Virus record (IMG/VR): IMGVR_UViG_3300025889_000169
Coordinates: 1 to 51,173 of that record
Direction: 5' to 3' (one strand)
Length of the DNA: 51,173 nt
Source: a virus
Positions within the stretch are counted from its first letter, which is position 1; every line of letters begins with the position of its first letter. The notes under the pieces are model-generated. The model was not told the DNA's origin and made no database searches. It saw only the letters and a list, made by a program, of their open reading frames with translations. The translations under genes were made by a program, and so were the position numbers. This document shows, in pieces, positions 9,647-49,502 of this stretch.

Positions 9647-10360
9647 TTATTTATTTAAAATAAACCAATCGTGTAGTTCATAATAGTAAAGATCATCCCT
9701 GCTATGATTTTTTATTGGTTTTCCAACTATCGTAAAGGGTTTTTTAATAGTATCCTGCCAAAACATACGATAAGGACACTGGTCTTCAGTTTCAATTAAG
9801 TAGAGTCTATCGTTTTCATCGTGCAACCAATTACAAGTAAACTTGGTTCCACTACTAAATCTGCTACGGCTATATTTTTGACTTTTCTTAGTATGACTAT
9901 TGATAAAATTTAATGTTCTCTCTACCGGTTGGTTATGTACTTCACTGTTTTTCCAAGGTGTGTTGTTGTAGTTTTCTTTTAAACTATCTAATAACATATC
10001 CTCTTCATATAACATTGGCAGGCTCATAATCATTCCAGTTTCTTCGTGGGCATAGGCACAGTCTTTTGTTAAAAACTTCAAGAGTTCAGATCTATACTTG
10101 GTTAAAGGCTTATTACCAAGTTGTAGCAATAACAGTTTTCCGCCAAAATGATTTCGAATTTTAACAGCGGTCTCTCGATCTTCTTCCGTAATTCTTTCAA
10201 GCACCATGCGGAAATTTTCCGGCACAGCATTTGTTCTATGCAAATGCCAGGCGCAGGCCACAGGATCGCCATCAAGTTTTAAATCTACTTCTTTAGCCAC
10301 CCATAATGGGTTATTAATATTCTTATCCATGTACTTTGGAAACGCATTTGATAAACTCAT
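9647..10360 (-). CDS. Hypothetical protein (237 aa)
   Basis: A soluble protein, starting [20 protein letters not shown], with [18 protein letters not shown] and a C-terminal [20 protein letters not shown]. Its ATG overlaps the end of the GMP reductase gene by four bases. I do not recognise a family. The charged, aromatic-rich composition resembles other late phage proteins in the window. Confidence 0.6.
9648..9655 (-). promoter_or_regulatory. T4-late-type box, 5 nt before ATG
   Basis: AATAAATA, then AGTAC, then the ATG at 9642. It overlaps the stop codon of the upstream gene. Confidence 0.5.
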
Positions 10361-11427
10361 TCATACACCCTATTATGCGTGTCGCTGCATCTTATAAATG
10401 TAGCACACTTGGTTAAATCTTTTAGACGCCTAGCACCAACATATGTACAAGTACTTCTTATACCGCCCAGCAAATCTTGTAGGGTGTCCTCGACTGACCC
10501 CTTGTAGGGTATAAGCACCTCCCTGCCTTCACTGCTACGATATTCTTTTAATCCGCCACTGTGTTTGTCGTTAGCGGCTTTGCTGCTCATACCATAAAAT
10601 TCAACAAATTGTCGTTCTTCCATAACACGATTTCCATTTGAATCTAGTTCGTCAGTGATGTACATTTTACTAATAACATCTCCTCCGCCCTCGTTGTGTC
10701 CCGCTAGCATTCCACCAAGCATGACAAAGTCTGCTCCAGCCGCAAATGCCTTAGCAACATCGCCAGGACAAGTACACCCACCATCAGCGATAATATGTCC
10801 ACCAAGGCCATGTGCCGCGTCGGCGCATTCCATAACCGCAGATAACTGGGGGTAACCAACACCAGTTTTAATACGAGTGGTACACACTGATCCAGGACCA
10901 ATACCGCACTTAACGATATCTGCTCCTTTGAGGATAAGTTCTTCTGTTATATCACCAGTAACGACATTGCCTGCTATGATTACTTTATCTGGAAATTCTT
11001 GTCTAAACGCTTGAACAAAGTCTATAAATCTTTCACTATAACCATTGGCAACATCAATACAAACGTATTTAATTACACTACCAACATTTACTGCTCTAAA
11101 CTTTGCTAGATCATCTTCTGTAACACCCATGCTATAAACAGCATAGTCACTACCAGGATGATTAAAATGTTCTACTAAACTGGAAATATTATAATGTTTA
11201 ACAACCGCGGTGAGCATGCCTTGTCTACAAAGAACATCATTCATATCCCAGGTGCCAACACCATCCATGTTAGCGGCAATAATAGGAATACCTTTGTAGG
11301 TTTGATGGCTATTGATAAATGTATACTCTCTGCTGAGACCTACATTTTTTCGACTATCCAGTGTACTACGTTTGGGCCGCAGTAGCACGTTAGAGTAATC
11401 TAACTTCAGATCGTTTTCTATTCTCAT
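10357..11427 (-). CDS. guaC: GMP reductase
   Basis: The protein is a full (beta/alpha)8 IMPDH/GMPR barrel of 356 aa, without CBS domains. That matches GuaC (about 347 aa) better than IMP dehydrogenase. It catalyses NADPH-dependent GMP + 2H to IMP + NH3. The catalytic loop [11 protein letters not shown] carries the active cysteine near residue 182. The phosphate-binding segment is in [20 protein letters not shown], and FYGMSS follows near 290. With PurS and the ribonucleotide reductase it forms a purine-recycling set. A promoter with TATAAT six bases before the ATG suggests a leaderless early message. Confidence 0.9.
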
Positions 11428-11433
11428 AAATTT

Positions 11434-11462
11434 ATTATAAGATATTTCTCGGATAAAAGCAA
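11434..11462 (-). promoter_or_regulatory. Sigma70-like promoter of guaC
   Basis: TTGCTT, 17 bp, TATAAT, then AAATTT and the ATG at 11427. The start site should fall on the start codon. Confidence 0.6.
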
Positions 11463-11463
11463 A

Positions 11464-11769
11464 TTATTCTTGTTCTAATTTTACTTCTAGTGGATAACCC
11501 TGATTACGAGCTTGAATAAGGACTTCAACGCCCTTTTGTTCTGCTATTTCAAAAGGTAGTACAGCAACAATTCCAGCACCCTTTTCATGAATTTCTGCTG
11601 TTTTCTTTTCTGCTTTTGGTGCATCGTAATCAAAAACATTTACTAAACTGTCACAAACAAAATCAAATGTAGTTACTTGATCATTTACATAAATGACCTT
11701 ATAGTCCTTGGGTGGTTCGAGGTCCAAAACAGGACGAAACTTTTCTCTAATATCTGTTTGCTCTGCCAT
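11464..11769 (-). CDS. clpS: ClpS, ClpA adaptor / N-end rule specificity factor
   Basis: Residues 25-100 carry the whole ClpS core: YKVIYVNDQVTTFDFVCDSL, a short helix, then HEKGAGIVAVLPFEIAEQKG and YPLEVKLEQE. ClpS binds the N-domain of ClpA, delivers N-degron proteins to ClpAP, and blocks degradation of SsrA-tagged ones. The ATG at 11769 is chosen because CGGAG lies just upstream; the longer frame would read through a hairpin. It follows hsp20. Since no ClpA or ClpP is seen here, it probably acts on the host protease. Confidence 0.9.
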   Translation of the reverse strand: MAEQTDIREKFRPVLDLEPPKDYKVIYVNDQVTTFDFVCDSLVNVFDYDAPKAEKKTAEIHEKGAGIVAVLPFEIAEQKGVEVLIQARNQGYPLEVKLEQE

Positions 11770-11785
11770 TTTTAACTCCGGGTTA

Positions 11786-11811
11786 GTAGGGGGAGATTTC
11801 TCTCCCCCTAC
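11786..11811 (-). terminator. Strong hairpin between hsp20 and clpS
   Basis: A perfect 11-bp inverted repeat (GTAGGGGGAGA and TCTCCCCCTAC) with a four-base loop. No T run follows on the minus strand, so it may be an RNA-stabilising or attenuating hairpin rather than a full terminator. Confidence 0.6.
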
Positions 11812-11821
11812 ACACAATTAT

Positions 11822-12250
11822 TTACACAAATTTAACAGGGATCTGACGAGGCTTTAGCTCTTCAGGTACATGGCGTTCTAGCACAATGCTTAGAATACCA
11901 TCCTGTACAGTTGCGTCCTTGACCTCTACGTGATCTGCAAGGTTAAAGGTACGACGAAACTTGCGACTGCTGATGCCCTTGTGTAGATATTCACGATTAG
12001 ATTCACCAGCATCTGTGCTACCTTCTACAGTTAGCACGCCATTATGGACAGTAACCTCGATATCCTTTTTGCCAAAACCTGCGACAGCAAGTTCAATTTC
12101 AAAGTTATCGTCATCCAGTTTAACCACATTGTAGGGTGGGTAACCTTCTGAAGTATGTCCGTTTACCAGCATACGATCAAGCAAACGATCGATGCCAATA
12201 AAGTTTCTGTTAAGTGTGGGGATGTCAAAAGTTGTAAGAGTATTATCCAT
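11822..12250 (-). CDS. hsp20: Hsp20-family small heat-shock protein (IbpA-like)
   Basis: The alpha-crystallin domain covers about residues 38-130 (YNVVKLDDDNFEIELAVAGF to the closing GILSIVLERHVPEE), with an N-terminal FIGIDRLLDRML motif typical of bacterial IbpA. The family holds unfolding proteins in a refoldable state. AAGGAG lies seven bases before the ATG. Upstream there is both a consensus sigma70 promoter and a perfect TATAAATA late box, so expression through the whole infection is likely. Confidence 0.93.
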   Translation of the reverse strand: MDNTLTTFDIPTLNRNFIGIDRLLDRMLVNGHTSEGYPPYNVVKLDDDNFEIELAVAGFGKKDIEVTVHNGVLTVEGSTDAGESNREYLHKGISSRKFRRTFNLADHVEVKDATVQDGILSIVLERHVPEELKPRQIPVKFV

Positions 12251-12317
12251 TGCATTTCTCCTTTTCTAAGCAAGATATACGTTTTGCGAAGACCCGACTG
12301 TCAGCATCTTCTAACTT

Positions 12318-12359
12318 TATTTATACAAGTATTATATACTTCTATAAAAAACTTGTCAA
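12318..12359 (-). promoter_or_regulatory. Composite early (sigma70) and late (TATAAATA) promoter of hsp20
   Basis: TTGACA (12354-12359), 17 bp, TATAAT (12331-12336), then TATAAATA (12318-12325), all on the minus strand. The start sites lie 60-80 bases before the ATG. Confidence 0.85.
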
Positions 12360-12364
12360 CTTTT

Positions 12365-12592
12365 TTATTTATAAAAGTTATTTTCTATTTCACGTTTTTT
12401 CTTTAGCCAGCGTTTGCGAGCCATATCACGTTCCTTGCGGCGACGCTCACTGGGCTTAGTAAAGCGTTCTTTATCTTTAAGAGTTTGAAGTAACCCATCT
12501 TCCTGTACCATTTTTTTAAGACGGCGCCAGGCCTTGTTAATATTGTTGTTGTGAACTTCTACACAAAGTCCACGTTTTTCTCTGTCTCTCAT
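12365..12592 (-). CDS. rpsU: Ribosomal protein bS21
   Basis: At 75 aa the size is normal for bS21. The core starts with CVEVHNNNINKAWRRLKKMV, followed by ERFTKPSERRRKERDMARKR. This matches the bS21 pattern of a variable N-terminus, a KALRRFKR-like helix and a basic C-terminus. bS21 sits near the 3' end of 16S rRNA and affects mRNA choice at initiation, so a phage copy could bias host ribosomes. Phage-borne bS21 is known in marine phages. Its ATG directly follows the stop of the upstream gene. Confidence 0.88.
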   Translation of the reverse strand: MRDREKRGLCVEVHNNNINKAWRRLKKMVQEDGLLQTLKDKERFTKPSERRRKERDMARKRWLKKKREIENNFYK

Positions 12593-12955
12593 TTAGTCCT
12601 CTAGTTTAGCAAGCCAACCTACCAAGAATGCCACTGGATCCTCGATCTGTTGTTTATTAATAATATTAAAATCTGTACTATTATTGTAATAGTAAGTTTT
12701 AGGTTTGTCAATTAGTAATCCTGTTACTAAATTGTCTACTTCAGTATTTAACAATATATAATCTACATTATTAGAAACATTTACCAACCAGTTTATATCC
12801 TTGCCTGAGTTTGCTAGGTATATAGTTATATCAATATTAATATCCTTGATGTAATTACATACACTTTGATTGTTGTATTCATAGCCAAAACTTAATATAC
12901 TTGGCTGGTCCATAAAATAATAGTCTGGCTGTGTAACCAGGGTAAATTTAGTCAT
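12593..12955 (-). CDS. Hypothetical protein (120 aa)
   Basis: The protein begins MTKFTLVTQPDYYFMDQPSI and ends DPVAFLVGWLAKLED. Alternating hydrophobic strands (ITIYLANSGKDINWLVNVSN, DYILLNTEV) suggest an alpha/beta fold. The start codon overlaps the stop of the frameshift extension upstream (ATGACTAA). No function assigned. Confidence 0.6.
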   Translation of the reverse strand: MTKFTLVTQPDYYFMDQPSILSFGYEYNNQSVCNYIKDINIDITIYLANSGKDINWLVNVSNNVDYILLNTEVDNLVTGLLIDKPKTYYYNNSTDFNIINKQQIEDPVAFLVGWLAKLED

Positions 12956-13265
12956 TTAATAAAAACTTTTTAATTTCGTCACGCTCATCTTCTGTAAGGT
13001 GCTCCAGGGATATTTTTCCACTCTTGATACTATTAACCATATGACGAATGTATTGTTCATTTCCAAGATAACTTGTGGTCCTGGTTTTGGGAATTTCTAT
13101 CCATTTGTTACCTGTAAACCTAAATAATTTATTAGGTAAAAAATCTACTCTTATAAAAAGATCCCCTTTTTCAGGATCTTCTACAAAGCTAGTACCAAAA
13201 TCTATATTGGCACCTAGTGGTAGTTCTAGGTCCCTGATGATATTATCAACAGAGACCTGAGCTAG
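12948..13265 (-). CDS. -1 frameshift extension of the membrane coiled-coil protein (105 aa)
   Basis: This frame has no ATG, GTG or TTG for its first 75 codons, yet it looks fully protein-like (RDLELPLGANIDFG, then PEKGDLFIRVDFLPNKLFRF, then SYLGNEQYIRHMV). It joins the 13262-15031 gene exactly in the -1 frame at a slippery heptamer and would give a 694-aa fusion. The end (KISLEHLTEDERDEIKKFLL) is helical. Without a frameshift it cannot be translated in full. Confidence 0.75.
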   Translation of the reverse strand, partial: LAQVSVDNIIRDLELPLGANIDFGTSFVEDPEKGDLFIRVDFLPNKLFRFTGNKWIEIPKTRTTSYLGNEQYIRHMVNSIKSGKISLEHLTEDERDEIKKFLLND

Positions 13266-13271
13266 TTTTTT
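13228..13271 (-). promoter_or_regulatory. Programmed -1 ribosomal frameshift signal
   Basis: The heptamer A AAA AAC (13265-13271) sits in the correct zero-frame phase immediately before the TAG stop. Six bases later a 9-bp hairpin begins (AGGTCTCTG pairing with CAGGGACCT, loop 13 nt). Slippery site, spacing and stem are all canonical. Confidence 0.8.
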
Positions 13272-15031
13272 GTTGTTGTTTCCGCACCACCTGCTTCTGC
13301 AACTAGATCGTTACCAAACTCGTCTTTCTCTACAAGCTGATATTTTTCTGCCATCTTGATAACAACAGCATCTCTGCGTTCTACCTCAGATTCAAGTTCT
13401 GCAACACGCTTTAGTAATTCTTCAATTCTTGTTGTGAACCCTTCTACTCCTGAGCTTAGTTCGTCTACTTGTTTTTTATAATTGTCACGATCTGCTTCTG
13501 TTTCTACTACCTTGTCTACCAACAACTCGGTCTGCTCTTTGCTAGTGGCAAGTTGTGATTCTAGTTCTATTTTTTCGCTTAGGAGAGCAGCGTGTTCATC
13601 CTGTAATTTTTGATATTCAAGTGGATTAATATTGCTTAAATTGCTGTCTAGTAATTTTTCTAGCTCGTCTAAAATCTCATTATGCTTTTTGAGTTCCATT
13701 TCAAGTTCCTCTACTCTTGGGTCTGGCTGTGTTTTTATCTGTAAATTTGTGTCATAAAAGCCTAGTGGTTTTTTATTTCTTTCTTGACGCCACCAGGTTA
13801 AGGTCATACTGCCTGCTAGCACAAGACATACAGCAAGTGGATCAAAAACTGCTACTATTATAATTATCACCCAACGCACTGCTTCCTCTAATAATGTCTT
13901 ATCTGCTGCACCATAGATAAGTTCTGCGATGTATTTTACTGGGCCTACTTCTGCTTCAAACTGTCTGTACTTTTTCTCAAATACAAACTTCTCTTCACGT
14001 AGTTGATCTATAACAGGCTGTTCGTTTTCTATTTGTTTTTCTAAATCAGCGATACGTGTATCTACACCCTTATTAGCATTACTTGCTTCTAGTGTATAAC
14101 GAGTAATATTTTCATTGGCACTCTTTACTGTGGGATCAACGCTCTTACGAATAGTAGCAATACGTGCTTCAACATCTTTTATACTGTTAGATAGTCTCTT
14201 GTTTATATCACGAATTTCTCGTTGTACCGCACTAGCAATACTAAGCTCATTTGCTTTGGCACGGTCAATATCTGCTTGTAGTTTATCACGCTCAGGCTTT
14301 TGTTTAGCTCTTAGTTCAGCACCCTTGGCAACGTTGTCTGTTGTGCTACTAAACAGACCACTTTCTCCAGTGGTGCCCTGCTTGGTGTATGCTTTCACGT
14401 CATTGTCTAGTCTTGTAAGTTCGTCTTGCGCTACTTTAATACTAGCCTCTGCACGTTTCTGTGCATCTACTAGGCGCTTTTCCTGCTGTCCAATCTCTGT
14501 TTGTGCTTGACTGCGTAGTCCGGGTATCTTTGCATTTTCAGCATCAATCTGCGGCTGTAGTCTAGCATTAGCATCCTTAATACGCTGTTGCTCTCGGGCA
14601 ATGAGACTGTCGATTCGACCACCAGTTTCGCCCTTGTTTAACGCCTGTATGTCTTCTTGCCAGCGTTTGATTTTGGCTTCTGACCTAGCCATCTTATCGT
14701 CAATATTTGCTGCTAGTGCTATTTGCTCTTGCCCTACACTAGCCTGTTCAATATGACTTTTACTTAGGAAACCAAATACACCCATGCTTGTAATAAACAT
14801 AAGCACTATGACCGCTATGGTTAAGTAGCCACGTATAATCTTAGGCGCACGATGCCAGTTTTGGTGTAGCCATACTGTGGTTAGAATTTTACCAACTTCT
14901 AGCACACTGCCCATTAGAACAATAGGCAAGAAGGCTGCTGCAAAGATAGCAGTCAAGCCAATGATGCTATAGTAAGCCGCAATACCTGAGATACACAGAG
15001 CAACTAATAATGTAAGAATACCTAAATACAT
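13262..15031 (-). CDS. Large membrane coiled-coil protein (DUF4407-like), frameshift upstream part
   Basis: Three hydrophobic spans lie near the N-terminus (about 3-25, 30-48 and 70-92) and one or two at 390-425 (WVIIIIVAVFDPLAVCLVLA). Between and after them are long charged coiled coils (residues 110-370 and 450-565). The layout resembles DUF4407 proteins and is familiar from T4-like cyanophages, where the function is not known to me. The zero-frame product ends at 589 aa just after a slippery heptamer; a -1 shift would extend it to 694 aa. The promoter's TATAAT ends six bases before the ATG. Confidence 0.75.
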   Translation of the reverse strand: MYLGILTLLVALCISGIAAYYSIIGLTAIFAAAFLPIVLMGSVLEVGKILTTVWLHQNWHRAPKIIRGYLTIAVIVLMFITSMGVFGFLSKSHIEQASVGQEQIALAANIDDKMARSEAKIKRWQEDIQALNKGETGGRIDSLIAREQQRIKDANARLQPQIDAENAKIPGLRSQAQTEIGQQEKRLVDAQKRAEASIKVAQDELTRLDNDVKAYTKQGTTGESGLFSSTTDNVAKGAELRAKQKPERDKLQADIDRAKANELSIASAVQREIRDINKRLSNSIKDVEARIATIRKSVDPTVKSANENITRYTLEASNANKGVDTRIADLEKQIENEQPVIDQLREEKFVFEKKYRQFEAEVGPVKYIAELIYGAADKTLLEEAVRWVIIIIVAVFDPLAVCLVLAGSMTLTWWRQERNKKPLGFYDTNLQIKTQPDPRVEELEMELKKHNEILDELEKLLDSNLSNINPLEYQKLQDEHAALLSEKIELESQLATSKEQTELLVDKVVETEADRDNYKKQVDELSSGVEGFTTRIEELLKRVAELESEVERRDAVVIKMAEKYQLVEKDEFGNDLVAEAGGAETTTKN

Positions 15032-15071: not shown

Positions 15072-16472
15072 TTAACGCTGTTCAATCCAAGTCATAGATG
15101 CAAGTGCGTCTTTACCTGTGCCACTTGATGCACATAAAATGGTGAATACATCACTGACTGATCCCAGGTTAGTTCTACCAATTTGATACGCTGTGCTTTC
15201 TTCCAGTTGGATGCCTGTGCCACCACCACCTGAGATAACAAATCCACTGTCAAGGACTCTGCCGTGATTGGCTTCAGTGATGTTAGCCGGAGTAATATAG
15301 GTTTGATACTGTGTAAATCCATCTGGGTCAGGATTGTCTAACCACGGTTGCGGTCCTGACTGTCCTGCTGTGACTTCTGCTGGTATGGTGGCATTACGCA
15401 CCAGTTTATAAAAGACGTTGGTGTTGTCAATGGTAGCAACCTGGAACGCCTGTGGTAAAACAATTCCATTCAGTGCCGACGACTTTAATCTAATACTTAA
15501 AACGGGATACCAATTGTCTTTGGTGCCGGCGCTGGACAAGGCATTTGCCATTCGTGTGCCATAAAAAGGAGCACTGATGTTTTGTGCTATACCAAGTTTA
15601 CCCACTGTGCCTTCTGAAATAAGACTGTTTGATCCTTGAAGCATTGTGAATGGTCCACCTGCTACGGTGCTGAGTGCTTCTATTTCCATTCTGATAGGAA
15701 GAAAAGGAGTCTGTGCCCAAGGTAAAGTATATCTGTTGGCATTTCGGTGAGTGTGTATCACGTGAGTTGCACCATCAATTACAAAACCAAACTTAACTTG
15801 ACCTGCGCCATACCATTCATATTCAACGTTGATCAACTGTATCTTGGTTGGGTCTGCTGTAATACCACTTGATTGAGTGCCGTCAAGTCTGTCGCCATTC
15901 CACTGACTTCTTGGAACCACAATGTCAACGCCGCCGTTTGATACTGTGCAGTTATAAACTGGAGCACCATCTACCCATACACCACTGTCTTCAAACCAAA
16001 AGCCATCTTCCCCTTGATTTAACATTCCAAATCTTTTGCGGATACCTTCTACAGGAGTTCCAAGTGTGACAGCAAAACTCACTGTGCTGGTTCTTCCTGG
16101 AACATATCGTTGTGCGAGAAGAGTTTGTCTAATAACTTTATCGCCACTGTCTCCATTGACGCTTAACTGTACTTGACTGCTGGCTAGTACGTGAGTTGCA
16201 CTGCCAGTGCCTGTTACACTAGTTTCCCATACGTCAGTTTCAAGACCATATTGGAATGTGTTAAAGAACACAGTTTCATAAGGACTTACTTTTTGTCTAC
16301 CCTTTGAGGTTAGCCCGCCGGCATCGCCAACACCAGTAGAAGTTTTAATACGCAACACAGGTTGCCCTGACGCATTGTAGTCCATTGCTTTATGCACATT
16401 GAGTAGATTGGTCTCTTGTGGATGGCTATAGTTTGTATTATTGTTTCTAGTGGTGTCTGAACGATCAACCAT
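15072..16472 (-). CDS. Probable virion structural protein (466 aa)
   Basis: The protein is rich in Ser, Thr, Gly and Asn with many short beta strands, as in phage fibre and adhesin proteins. Stretches such as FGMLNQGEDGFWFEDSG and VEYEWYGAGQVKFGFVIDGA resemble a jelly-roll domain that recurs in marine phage structural proteins. It follows the LamG-like gene by three bases, so the two are probably co-expressed and may be partners. No enzyme motif is visible. Confidence 0.65.
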   Translation of the reverse strand: MVDRSDTTRNNNTNYSHPQETNLLNVHKAMDYNASGQPVLRIKTSTGVGDAGGLTSKGRQKVSPYETVFFNTFQYGLETDVWETSVTGTGSATHVLASSQVQLSVNGDSGDKVIRQTLLAQRYVPGRTSTVSFAVTLGTPVEGIRKRFGMLNQGEDGFWFEDSGVWVDGAPVYNCTVSNGGVDIVVPRSQWNGDRLDGTQSSGITADPTKIQLINVEYEWYGAGQVKFGFVIDGATHVIHTHRNANRYTLPWAQTPFLPIRMEIEALSTVAGGPFTMLQGSNSLISEGTVGKLGIAQNISAPFYGTRMANALSSAGTKDNWYPVLSIRLKSSALNGIVLPQAFQVATIDNTNVFYKLVRNATIPAEVTAGQSGPQPWLDNPDPDGFTQYQTYITPANITEANHGRVLDSGFVISGGGGTGIQLEESTAYQIGRTNLGSVSDVFTILCASSGTGKDALASMTWIEQR

Positions 16473-19897: not shown

Positions 19898-19986
19898 TGG
19901 CTCCGGAGGTAGGACCGGAGGTAGGATTCGAACCTACGACCCACGGATTAACAGTCCGTTGCTACTACCAACTGAGCTATCCTGGA
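19898..19986 (-). tRNA. tRNA-Asn (GUU)-like gene with 12-nt 3' duplication, probably defective
   Basis: The anticodon arm ACGGACTGTTAATCCGT (GUU) and the T arm GTAGG-TTCGAAT-CCTAC are intact, and CCA is encoded. However, TCCTACCTCCGG is present twice in tandem between the T loop and the CCA end. The acceptor stem has mismatches, and the D arm carries an extra base (GCTC against GTAGC). Total length is 89 nt instead of 76. Confidence 0.7.
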
Positions 19987-19992
19987 TTATTA

Positions 19993-24365: not shown

Positions 24366-24640
24366 TAACCTGAACTCTTCATGGAATATGAACCTGTCTT
24401 CAAAACTTCCCTAGCATTTACCCTAATGAATTTCTTGTTTTTTTCATTTTTGTTTGGATTCGGAATAGTTAGAACTACATTTTTGCCTTTAATAAAAGCA
24501 GCTATTTGATTATTTGCTCTTTCTAAAAGATTATTTTCTAAATATTCACGACGCATTGTTTTACGTAACCAGCGTGATACGTTTGGACGCTCACCTTTTG
24601 AAGTATAATTCTTGCCTGAAGACCTCTTACCCTTTGCCAT
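24365..24640 (-). CDS. Basic conserved phage protein (91 aa)
   Basis: The protein begins MAKGKRSSGKNYTSKGERPN and has a helical basic middle (RWLRKTMRREYLENNLLERA). Its C-terminal part is VVLTIPNPNKNEKNKKFIRV. I recall similar proteins in T4-like marine phages without a known role. It overlaps the downstream bL33-like gene by one base and the upstream lipoprotein gene by 14 bases. Confidence 0.65.
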   Translation of the reverse strand: MAKGKRSSGKNYTSKGERPNVSRWLRKTMRREYLENNLLERANNQIAAFIKGKNVVLTIPNPNKNEKNKKFIRVNAREVLKTGSYSMKSSG

Positions 24641-24947
24641 CTTTGTTTTCCTTTTTTTGCTTTAATTGCTCTTGCGTTTTCAAGTTTTCAATGTAATCTT
24701 TTATTGCTTTATCTAGGTTTACTTTACAGTATTCTTCCCCTTCTAGGAGGCTTCTAGTTTTGCATTCTTTGTCGACTATTTCAGATATAACATGATCATT
24801 AATAGTTTTTTCGTCTGCTATAATTGCCCCTGCATCATAAACAGTTTTTGCTGCTCCTAATATTTGTATGGGCAAAGGAACTAATCCTGCTGCACATCCT
24901 CCTAACATTGTAATAAAAATACTTAAATATGTCAACCTTAAATTCAA
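24627..24947 (-). CDS. Small lipoprotein (about 106 aa)
   Basis: A short hydrophobic segment (LTYLSIFITMLGGC) ends in the lipobox LGGC. The mature part runs AAGLVPLPIQILGAAKTVYD, then NDHVISEIVDKECKT and a Lys/Glu-rich tail. The start is uncertain: a TTG at 24947 has GGAG eight bases upstream, and a TTG at 24959 is also possible. It lies directly behind the tmRNA, whose precursor may extend into it. Similar small lipoproteins occur in alphaproteobacteria. Confidence 0.6.
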   Translation of the reverse strand: MNLRLTYLSIFITMLGGCAAGLVPLPIQILGAAKTVYDAGAIIADEKTINDHVISEIVDKECKTRSLLEGEEYCKVNLDKAIKDYIENLKTQEQLKQKKENKDGKG

Positions 24948-25014
24948 TACCTGCTCCAAGGTAGATGCTAGCTGATTCTGTTGCCAGGTTCAGCTAGCCA
25001 AACCCCGTCTAGCC

Positions 25015-45777: not shown

Positions 45778-47475
45778 ATGAAATTACCAAAAGATGCGAA
45801 GGCTCAATTAGATAGGCTACTTGGCAGGTTCACAAGGCAAATACCAGAGGCTCCTGAGTACCAAGACAGACTCGTCGAAGAATTTGAGATTATTCTCAAA
45901 CTTCGCTTTACTGATTATTTCCTAACAATTTGCGACGTACTAGCTCTGACCGAGGACATTCCACATATGACTCGGGGTTCAGCAGGGTCTAGTCTTGTCT
46001 GTTATCTACTAGGTATTACAGACGTTGATCCCATAAGGTGGCAGATACCTGTTGCCCGTTTCCTAAATCCTTTGAGGGATGATCTACCAGACGTAGACAT
46101 AGACTTTCCGCATTGGCAACAGGACACTGTGATGCAACGTATCTTTGCAAATTGGCCAGAACGTTCAGCAAGAATCAGTAACTATGTGCTATACAAGGAG
46201 CGCAGTGCTCGCAGAGAAGCGGCGCGCCGTCTAGGTGCGTCTGGTAGACTCCCTCGTAATTTTCGTTATGAAGATTTAGACATTGACAAGGAAGAGGCCA
46301 TGAGAATCGAACACAAATTAATAGGCAAAAAACGAAGCATCAGCAAACACTGTGGTGGTGTGCTGGTATTTGAGAGAAAACTACCCAAGAGTTTATTCAA
46401 CAAAGACAATCAGATATTATTAGACAAACGTGAAGTAGAAGACTTAGAACACCTTAAGATAGACATACTTGCTAACAGAGGTCTAAGCCAACTTATTGAA
46501 ATAGATCCTGACACGCCACTGGAAGCATATCCAGAACAGGACTTTGAAACAAGTCAGTTACTATGTAGGGGTGATGTTATTGGCGTAACACAAGCAGAAT
46601 CTCCTGCAATGAGACGGCTGTTCCGTGCAATACAGCCACAATCAAAAGCAGACTGTGTGTTTGCCACAGCACTCATACGTCCTGTTGCAACTACAGGCAG
46701 ACAGAAAGCAAGTTTCTTTCAGGACTGGACAGAACAAAGACTAGAGGACACTATTGTATATGAGGATGATGCTATACGTAAGATTGCTAAACTCATAGGC
46801 TGCGACTTGTATGAAGCAGACATGTACAGACGTGCGTTTGCTAAGAAGGATGAAGAACGTGTAATAGAATTTATGAGTCGAATGGGCGAACATGCTGACA
46901 AGGAAGCAATCATACAAGAGCTGTATGGACTGGGTAACTTTGGACTGTGCCGCGCTCATGCTGTAAACCTGGGTAGACTTATTTGGGCACTTGCATATCA
47001 AAAGGCACACAACCCACTAAAGTTTTGGCAGGCTGCACTCAAGCACTGTCAGGGATCATACAAGCGTTGGGTACACAAGCAGGAAGCAAAAACAGCAGGT
47101 TGGGATCTACGTGATCTTGGATATGAGAATGGAATATGTGAGTCACCTGTTACACAATACAAACGCAATGGCTATTGGTCACAGCCAGAGTTTATGCCCA
47201 ATATGTTTGTACAGGAAACCTATTTGGACCGTGTAAACTTTGCAGGGCTTGTAGCAAATGGGCGTGTATTCAAGGGTGCAGAGGGCAAGTATGTCACGTT
47301 TGTTACGCTAGGCGTGGGCAATAGTGATTACGTAGACGTAACTATCAAAAAGCCCTTTGGCTTCAGAGACCATGATGTTATTGTGGGTTCGGGTAAGATA
47401 CGCATGACTAACGGCACACGCTATATTGACTGTTGGGAAGCAAAGGGCTATAGACTAGATAGATATTTGTCCTAG
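45778..47475 (+). CDS. Short C-family DNA polymerase (DnaE/PolC palm-fingers type, no PHP domain)
   Basis: Motifs of bacterial Pol III alpha follow in order: RGSAGSSLVCYLLGITDVDP (66-85), RFLNP (94-98), PDVDIDF with D107 and D109 (104-110), SKHCGGVLVF (189-198) and HLKIDIL with D229. Next come a GVTQAESPAMRRL-type finger helix and the GNFGLCRAHAVNLGRL helix. The C-terminal 90 residues look like an OB fold (FAGLVANGRVFKGAEGKYVT). All three catalytic Asp are kept, but at 565 aa the N-terminal PHP domain and tau-binding end are absent. It could replicate or repair phage DNA. Confidence 0.8.
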   Translation: MKLPKDAKAQLDRLLGRFTRQIPEAPEYQDRLVEEFEIILKLRFTDYFLTICDVLALTEDIPHMTRGSAGSSLVCYLLGITDVDPIRWQIPVARFLNPLRDDLPDVDIDFPHWQQDTVMQRIFANWPERSARISNYVLYKERSARREAARRLGASGRLPRNFRYEDLDIDKEEAMRIEHKLIGKKRSISKHCGGVLVFERKLPKSLFNKDNQILLDKREVEDLEHLKIDILANRGLSQLIEIDPDTPLEAYPEQDFETSQLLCRGDVIGVTQAESPAMRRLFRAIQPQSKADCVFATALIRPVATTGRQKASFFQDWTEQRLEDTIVYEDDAIRKIAKLIGCDLYEADMYRRAFAKKDEERVIEFMSRMGEHADKEAIIQELYGLGNFGLCRAHAVNLGRLIWALAYQKAHNPLKFWQAALKHCQGSYKRWVHKQEAKTAGWDLRDLGYENGICESPVTQYKRNGYWSQPEFMPNMFVQETYLDRVNFAGLVANGRVFKGAEGKYVTFVTLGVGNSDYVDVTIKKPFGFRDHDVIVGSGKIRMTNGTRYIDCWEAKGYRLDRYLS

Positions 47476-48389
47476 ATGTTTATACCATAGTCTTGTCTAC
47501 GAATACCTTTGAGCATGTCTTGTCTATCCAATTCCTGTATGGTTTGTTCGTTAATTGGAGTCCTAGGATTAAAACATGCAGGCTGAGTTACTTCACTGAT
47601 AAACCAGTTTAGATTATTTTTTTCAAACCAATCTAAAGTTTCCTGTTTATAAGGTAATAGAACATTAGTAAGTGCAAAGTGTACACTAATGTCACAACCT
47701 ATACTTTTAAATTTCTCAAGGTTAACTAATAATTTATCCCATTTTAACGGCCAACGTTGGTATTCGTAACGACTTTCTATACCGTCAATACTTAAACATA
47801 ATATTAATTTTTTGAACTTTTTAAGTACTGTTAGTAAATCTTCCGTTAATTCTATACTACCATTTGTGATAATGCTAACAGTACAGTCTTTGTTTAGTCT
47901 TTCTAATATTTCTATGTTCTTTGATTCTAAAAGTGTTTCACCGCCTAGCAGTTCCACATATTTTGCTGTATCAAAATCTATTTCATTAAGTAACTCGTCG
48001 CCTATTGTTCTTTTATGTGCTATACCATCCAAACTTTCCCACATGCTGCTATAATTTGGAGAACACATTATACAAGCAGCGTTGCAAACATTACTAGTAG
48101 TAATCTGATAGATTGTTGGCTGATAATGTGTACAAATCTTTTTTAAATTTTCAATATCTAGATCATAAAGTGTATCAGCAAGTATGTTTTGCTGTTGTCT
48201 CCTGCTCGTCTGACCTAGGTCTTCTGAGTTCCAGCATTTCTGACATGCAGAAGTTTTTATTCCATTACTAATCTCTGTTCTTATTAAATCTATGTCATAG
48301 TCCTGAGGTAACCAGCAACAGTGCCCGATACGACCTCTTGGATATATTTCTTTTGCTAACCATGGCATAACACAAAATGTATCTGACAT
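47472..48389 (-). CDS. Radical SAM protein, twitch/SPASM-related (305 aa)
   Basis: The cluster motif is C102-x3-C106-x2-C109 (SNVCNAACIMCS). A Cys-rich N-terminal part (IGHCCWLPQD, SACQKCWNSED) is typical of the twitch/SPASM-type proteins in marine phages. KYVELLGGETLLE supplies the GGE motif for SAM. The enzyme would make a 5'-deoxyadenosyl radical, but the target is unknown. It sits next to a second, similar protein, and its end overlaps the polymerase gene by four bases on the opposite strand. Confidence 0.82.
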   Translation of the reverse strand: MSDTFCVMPWLAKEIYPRGRIGHCCWLPQDYDIDLIRTEISNGIKTSACQKCWNSEDLGQTSRRQQQNILADTLYDLDIENLKKICTHYQPTIYQITTSNVCNAACIMCSPNYSSMWESLDGIAHKRTIGDELLNEIDFDTAKYVELLGGETLLESKNIEILERLNKDCTVSIITNGSIELTEDLLTVLKKFKKLILCLSIDGIESRYEYQRWPLKWDKLLVNLEKFKSIGCDISVHFALTNVLLPYKQETLDWFEKNNLNWFISEVTQPACFNPRTPINEQTIQELDRQDMLKGIRRQDYGINI

Positions 48390-49502
48390 CTATAGGTACC
48401 TGCTGTAAAAACTTGAAACTTCAGGAAATGTTTTAGTCCAATCCTGCTTCCTCCAACCATCAACCTTTTGGATCTCAGATATCATTTTTTTAATCAGTGC
48501 AGAATTTTCAACAAAATTAGTTGGTACAAGACCAAAAATATCGGTTCCGGTAATTCTGTCTATATACTCGTTAGTCATTGACTGTAAACTAAAAATACCA
48601 TATGCATTATGCGTTGTATGATTAGTAATATCCCCCAAGCGATTAGTACTAAAATTAGACCTAGCCCAATTGACTAATTCATTATGATAATACAAGTTAA
48701 AAATGCTCAGGGTTTCTTCTACTAGAAACATCATATTAACTGGTGCAGTGTCAACTATTTCTTGGATATTTTCAGTAACTTGATTCCAGCTAGCTGGCCA
48801 TCTAAGATATTCAAAGCGTTCAGCAACACCATCTAAACTAATATTAAGTTTTACAAGATGTGCTTTTTCTATAATAGAATAATGACGTTCTCCAATTGGC
48901 TGTGTGCCATTTGTTTGAAAACTAATTGTAAGCTGGTTACCAGCATTGGGAACATTGTTAACAAGATAGTCAGCAACTTTCCAATAACTTTCTCCAAGTA
49001 ATGTCTCGCCACCGCCAAATACTACGCTTTTAAGATTAGATAAGTCTAGAGTTTTAAGTATAGCAATCATTTCCTCGACACGATCAGGTTTTGGATCCAT
49101 CTCTGAGATTGCATTATTGTCCTTTAAATGTTTTTGCCAAAATGTGCTGCTATGAGGTCCACAGCTACGACATGATAGGTTGCAACTTGTGCTAAACATC
49201 AAATCTAAACGTAACGGGCCAGATATGTTTCTTTGTACACCAAACTGTTCTAACATTCCTTGTCTGAAGCTAATTAGGCCGGCACGTTCATTTGCTTGAC
49301 AAGACCAACAGCTATCTAACCACTCTCCCTGATCGTTTTTTTGTCTAATTACCTCAAAGTTCTTTTTTTCCCAAACATTATTAGTTTGAATAAAGTCACT
49401 GGTGTCCAAACAACAATATTTAATATTGATTCCAGTCCCTTGTTTTAAGTTAATATTAAGACCTCCGTGAATCATAGGGCAATATGTAGAATTATCAGTC
49501 AT
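48390..49502 (-). CDS. Radical SAM protein, twitch/SPASM-related (370 aa)
   Basis: C107-x3-C111-x2-C114 (STSCNLSCRSCG) binds the [4Fe-4S] cluster, and VVFGGGETLLGE gives the GGE motif. The N-terminal part has further cysteines (TYCPMIHGG, IKYCCLD, WLDSCWSCQANER) that could bind an auxiliary cluster. NISLDGVAERFEYLRWPASW is a shared block with the neighbouring radical SAM protein (SIDGIESRYEYQRWPLKW), so the two are paralogues. Substrate unknown. Confidence 0.82.
   Translation of the reverse strand: MTDNSTYCPMIHGGLNINLKQGTGINIKYCCLDTSDFIQTNNVWEKKNFEVIRQKNDQGEWLDSCWSCQANERAGLISFRQGMLEQFGVQRNISGPLRLDLMFSTSCNLSCRSCGPHSSTFWQKHLKDNNAISEMDPKPDRVEEMIAILKTLDLSNLKSVVFGGGETLLGESYWKVADYLVNNVPNAGNQLTISFQTNGTQPIGERHYSIIEKAHLVKLNISLDGVAERFEYLRWPASWNQVTENIQEIVDTAPVNMMFLVEETLSIFNLYYHNELVNWARSNFSTNRLGDITNHTTHNAYGIFSLQSMTNEYIDRITGTDIFGLVPTNFVENSALIKKMISEIQKVDGWRKQDWTKTFPEVSSFYSRYL

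Follow-up and report, generated by a model that had tools for sequence, protein, structure and literature searches.

A large membrane coiled-coil gene in the virus record IMGVR_UViG_3300025889_000169 very probably makes two products by a programmed -1 ribosomal frameshift, which is the best explanation of its slippery site, its downstream hairpin and the coding region that continues in the -1 frame (Table 1). We refer to the whole stretch of DNA that was analysed, 51,173 nucleotides in length, as the window. A spacer of 6 nt (TAGCTC) separates the heptamer from a stem of 9 bp, one of them G-U, which closes a loop of 13 nt in which 4 further inner pairs are possible. The -1 frame contains no ATG, GTG or TTG from the overlap to more than 10 codons past the 0-frame stop, nor any upstream of the conserved core of the domain that it encodes, and the short and long products would be 589 and 694 aa. 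An earlier note on this DNA had described the in-phase heptamer before the stop, the 9-bp hairpin six bases beyond it, the 105-residue -1 frame without a start of its own and two products that differ by a C-terminal domain; each of these features, including the product sizes, is present in the sequence as described. Its reading of them as a programmed -1 frameshift is strengthened by conservation of the heptamer, by covariation in the stem, by selection on the -1 coding region and by in-frame fusions among relatives.

Table 1. Coordinates of the features at the proposed frameshift site in the window
Feature	Position	Strand	Remarks
0-frame ORF	13262..15031	minus	589 aa; ends GAA ACA ACA ACA AAA AAC TAG
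Slippery heptamer A AAA AAC	13265..13271	minus	X XXY YYZ phase, abutting TAG
0-frame stop TAG	13262..13264	minus	
Stem 5' arm AGGTCTCTG	13250..13258	minus	begins 6 nt past the heptamer
Stem 3' arm CAGGGACCT	13228..13236	minus	
-1 frame extension	12948..13265	minus	C-terminal domain; 105 codons (13265-12951) + TAA (12950-12948)
Next gene	12593..12955	minus	120 aa; ATG overlaps the -1 frame stop

Ribosomes finishing the 589-aa protein would reach A AAA AAC while meeting a stable hairpin, and some of them would slip back one base, with tRNA-Lys and tRNA-Asn re-pairing on AAA AAA, so as to bypass TAG and append the 105-residue domain. We infer that both forms are made in the cell, and likewise infer their ratio and roles. 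An inner-membrane coiled-coil phage protein may be built as a mixed assembly of short and long subunits. A limiting fraction of the subunits would carry the C-terminal domain, which is predicted to face the cytoplasm, and would use it to recruit a partner or to cap or trimerise the coil; the two forms might then amount to the dosage trick that the earlier note saw in them. A AAA AAC is known as a mediocre slip site in E. coli, which counts against this explanation. The window also carries a phage-encoded tRNA-Asn(GTT) gene (19912-19987, minus strand), whose product would decode the AAC of the heptamer.

In-phase A AAA AAN is rare in the long ORFs of the window, with 18 occurrences in 13,261 codons. 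The 50 nt that follow the heptamer have a minimum free energy of -19.7 kcal/mol. Set against 500 synonymous shuffles of the -1 frame, which average -6.3 +/- 2.2, this gives a z of -6.2; none of the shuffles was equally stable, and neither was any other 50-nt segment along the gene. A fixed criterion, namely an in-phase heptamer in the overlap, a -1 frame that extends for 20 codons or more and the absence of a nearby start codon, picked out 31 of 141 ORFs of the protein family, a count that takes in relatives by descent and includes three (L066, L122 and L150) whose -1 extension has no homology support. It picked out 0 of 498 control ORFs of at least 250 aa, drawn from the window and the fetched loci outside the family. 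The corresponding Fisher value of 3e-22 is overstated because the relatives are not independent. Elsewhere in the window, a second in-phase heptamer, A AAA AAG, precedes by 21 nt the stop of an ORF that resembles a lipoprotein gene (24627-24989, minus strand) and would open a -1 extension of 29 codons; we rejected it as a frameshift because the -1 reading is noise-like and the gene that follows starts from an ATG of its own. A further ORF (5202-5729, plus strand) carries an in-phase C CCT TTA near its stop, followed by a 45-codon -1 extension without a start codon.

The earlier note named two things in relatives that would support its reading, an in-frame fusion or a conserved slippery site with a stem, and both are found. 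Relatives were drawn from IMG/VR scans; in two of these, the 80 best were taken from some 600 or more candidate stretches. The layout of the window recurs in at least 16 sequences, comprising the window and 15 IMG/VR relatives (L003, L005, L006 [= L007], L008, L009 [= L010], L011, L012, L013, L015, L047, L048, L214, L215, L221 and L222), among which L003/L215 and L221/L222 are near-identical pairs. The heptamers of this clade, A AAA AAC, AAT, AAA or AAG and, in L047, C CCA AAG, are all in phase, and the 0-frame stop falls 0 to 12 nt past them; the last base of the heptamer, the tail of the 0 frame and the sequence of the stem are all variable. The stems, at spacings of 4-7 nt when read by hand, have widely divergent sequences (AGGTCTCTG/CAGGGACCT, GGGTACCTAA/TTAGGTGCCC, AGGCTTCTAC/GTAGGAGCCT, GAGTCCTAAC/GTTGAGGACTC and GGTTCCTAC/GTAGCGGACC), and across the 16 sequences their stability relative to synonymous shuffles has a mean z of -3.0. 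When arms were swapped between members, own arms paired with a mean of -11.4 kcal/mol, whereas permuted arms reached -6.7 +/- 0.94, and 1 of 18,260 sampled permutations paired as well as the own arms; these stems were hand-read, which biases the test toward own pairing, a bias that touches neither the shuffle test nor a consensus fold computed automatically, in which 5 of 7 pairs show compensatory changes. The downstream RNA structure is therefore conserved beyond the constraint on the protein, with the stem covarying. The hairpin of L006 is weak (z -0.9), and in several relatives the stem is no stronger than other segments along the same gene. A pseudoknot between the loop and downstream sequence is possible at a constant position in many clade members; we keep it as a possibility because its swap p is about 0.01 and the helix is not clear in the window, L008 or L009.

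The substitution pattern of the -1 domain bears on whether the gene is simply broken. Across eight pairs the dN/dS of this domain is 0.07-0.28, with substitutions concentrated at the third positions of its own codons, and by this measure it is under purifying selection and evolves as protein. An error made in sequencing or assembly, or a gene that broke only recently, would draw on the proneness of homopolymers to errors and on the in-frame fusion known in relatives. Such an origin is barely credible given that selection and the covarying stem, and is already refuted by the relatives; a second IMG/VR assembly agrees across the whole gene, although that assembly is nearly identical and perhaps from the same population. 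Moreover, the frame relation is kept, with different bases, even by relatives whose domains are only about 40% identical, and a missing or extra A is unlikely because distinct relatives share that relation.

Transcriptional slippage, in which RNA polymerase inserts or skips an A and the edited mRNAs give the long form, would suit the A-rich character of all site types but one, and is plausible at distant family sites with 8-9 A (L061, L085, L086, L088 and L140). For the window gene it is quite improbable, as the run there is 6 A, L047, L159 and L211 use C CCA AAG without any run, and a conserved stem at a spacing appropriate to the ribosome would have no role on short runs. It is most improbable that the domain is instead made separately, by reinitiation or from an internal start. 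A separately started domain, which the earlier note had held to speak against a frameshift, does exist as a gene with its own start in L016, L017, L022, L024, L053 and L061, which are distant relatives whose genes are laid out differently; in the window itself no ATG, GTG or TTG precedes the domain core, and the clade keeps a slippery heptamer that a separate gene would not need. A programmed -1 frameshift thus accounts best for the window gene, and the strong form of this claim is confined to its clade.

The wider family raises the question of how often such sites have arisen. Within the clade, L014 encodes the domain in one frame (679 aa) and L004 has lost it, and on a quick tree built from conserved columns these two form a supported group of 15 with 13 frameshift members. 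In-frame fusions beyond the clade number several dozen sequences, including L018, L021, L023, L049-L052 and L054. Its loss from L004 and its separate coding in some distant relatives mean that the domain is not needed in linked form everywhere. In-phase slippery runs also occur at other positions: after the last TM helix in L140, L149 and L157; within the coil in L063 (7581-7641) and L114 (7521-7629); before a tail with the motif YxQNxEQxxxSxWxK in L056, L057, L059, L060 and L062, and at this same position in L077, L085, L086, L088 and L119; and elsewhere in the gene in L061 and L100. At these alternative sites the -1 frame restores what relatives encode in frame, which in L063, L114, L140, L149 and L157 is the coil together with the C domain. 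The classes fall in separate places on the tree, and together with the differing positions this argues for several origins of the sites, with polymerase slippage or assembly error a live alternative at the runs of 8-9 A. A further candidate, L099, was rejected because what its -1 frame encodes is the next gene, whose own ATG overlaps. The slippery -1 extension is absent from the cultured phages that carry the N-terminal family (Mosig, SCTP-2, Mel-JY01, immuto, XacN1 and RAS14), and in larger contigs, up to 203 kb, a phrog_11591 protein query recovered the frameshift domain and no second copy of the C domain. We lean slightly toward the view that this membrane coiled-coil family is a hot spot for recoding, in which -1 frameshifting arose several times at different positions. 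That these sites alternate with in-frame fusion, separate genes and loss is, with the same slight preference, part of that view. If it is correct, a set ratio of short to long C-terminal forms would itself be the selected property, and the family would represent a frameshift-tuned phage machine distinct from the tail chaperone.

What the two forms might do can be approached from the predicted protein. By hydropathy, three segments of the 589-aa part are hydrophobic (about 1-53, 62-92 and 378-413), the first of which is probably two TM helices, with long coiled coil between and after them. An AF2 model renders the remainder almost entirely as helix (pLDDT 71, pTM 0.34). We predict a coiled-coil membrane protein with four TM helices, belonging to a family of large aquatic phages. 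Its charges suggest that the N-terminus is inside, that a long periplasmic coil lies between TM helices 3 and 4, and that the C-terminal coil and the added domain are inside, on the cytoplasmic side. Searched against PHROG and Pfam at E 0.001, the 589-aa protein matched no family, tail assembly chaperones included; PF14362 (DUF4407) gave weak matches in 3 of 13 members (best E 0.036), below its gathering score.

The added domain has the core motif FGTxFP..KGDLFxRVDxLPNKLFRxTGxxWIEI and its AF2 model (pLDDT 79.5) comprises four short strands along with three helices. Foldseek returned nothing significant for it in the PDB. Among its best matches, it aligns with a collagen XVIII unit at Z 4.0 and rmsd 2.7 over 47 residues, a score that an unrelated chain equals, and with the C-terminus of CBA120 tailspike 3 at rmsd 1.6 over 37 residues; the model weakly resembles a fibre or collagen-XVIII trimerisation module. 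The hairpin part of the domain recurs in phage virion proteins (phrog_11591). From this recurrence and the weak likeness to trimerisation modules, our working guess is that the long form carries a trimerising or partner-binding end on its coiled coil.

The gene is preceded by two genes for virion structural proteins, the nearer at 15072-16472 (phrog_1645), and followed by a 120-aa gene, bS21 and Hsp20; no tape measure gene, which together with the major tail protein gene would flank a tail assembly chaperone, was identified in the annotated part of the window, and in phage Mosig the homologue adjoins a glucosaminidase gene. The 120-aa gene occupies the same position in many relatives and has the motif TGLLIDKPKTYYYNN with no family match. 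Beyond it runs a series of cellular-type genes on the minus strand (10357-12592), namely an IMP dehydrogenase/GMP reductase-like gene, Hsp20 and ribosomal protein bS21. In another part of the window, a 565-aa DNA polymerase III alpha fragment (45778-47475, plus strand) has NTPase and finger parts only, as if split, and adjoins a tandem pair of radical SAM genes (47472-49502, minus strand).

The mechanism proposed here is already known, being an ordinary, canonical -1 programmed frameshift. We did not find a frameshift in such a membrane coiled-coil family in the open-access literature that was searched, nor its repeated use there, and the recurrence is the interesting part. Well-studied phage frameshifts concern mostly tail chaperones, along with a small number of capsid or tail proteins, and a second, unrelated phage family with seemingly recurrent shifts would offer a natural experiment on why it suits phages to make one protein in two C-terminal forms. 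PRFect was trained on tail chaperones (PMC10885494). Such a family also supplies a test site with strong support on which recoding tools can be tried, and it warns that gene callers truncate its proteins.

Among known systems, dnaX and the transposases of IS elements use -1 frameshifts stimulated by a stem or pseudoknot. The window site is like theirs in having a heptamer of the A AAA AAG type followed by a stem-loop at 5-8 nt; by eye there was no consistent Shine-Dalgarno-like enhancer upstream. Unlike dnaX, the frameshift product here is the longer form, and the gene encodes a phage membrane protein. Frameshifts in lambda gpG/gpGT and other tail assembly chaperones have been reviewed (PMC5009743), and the likeness to gpG/gpGT lies in a heptamer near the 3' end of the ORF and in a minority product of a tailed phage that gains a C-terminal domain. 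The window gene differs in encoding a 589-aa protein with four predicted TM helices and a coiled coil and no chaperone match, its clade in having a conserved downstream stem and a member with an in-frame fusion, and its wider family in shifting at several different positions. Structural proteins of Listeria phage PSA and Lactobacillus phage A2 are likewise made in two frameshift forms (PMC5009743), so that two forms of one phage protein arise as proposed here; those are capsid and tail proteins, whereas the window product is a predicted membrane protein. Finally, the virion structural proteins of phrog_11591 (PA5oct EST35_0163 and marine relatives) share with the added domain the core FGxxFP..GDxFLRxDFLPNKLFRxxGxKW, but the remainder of those proteins is unrelated and has neither the TM nor the coiled-coil part of this family.
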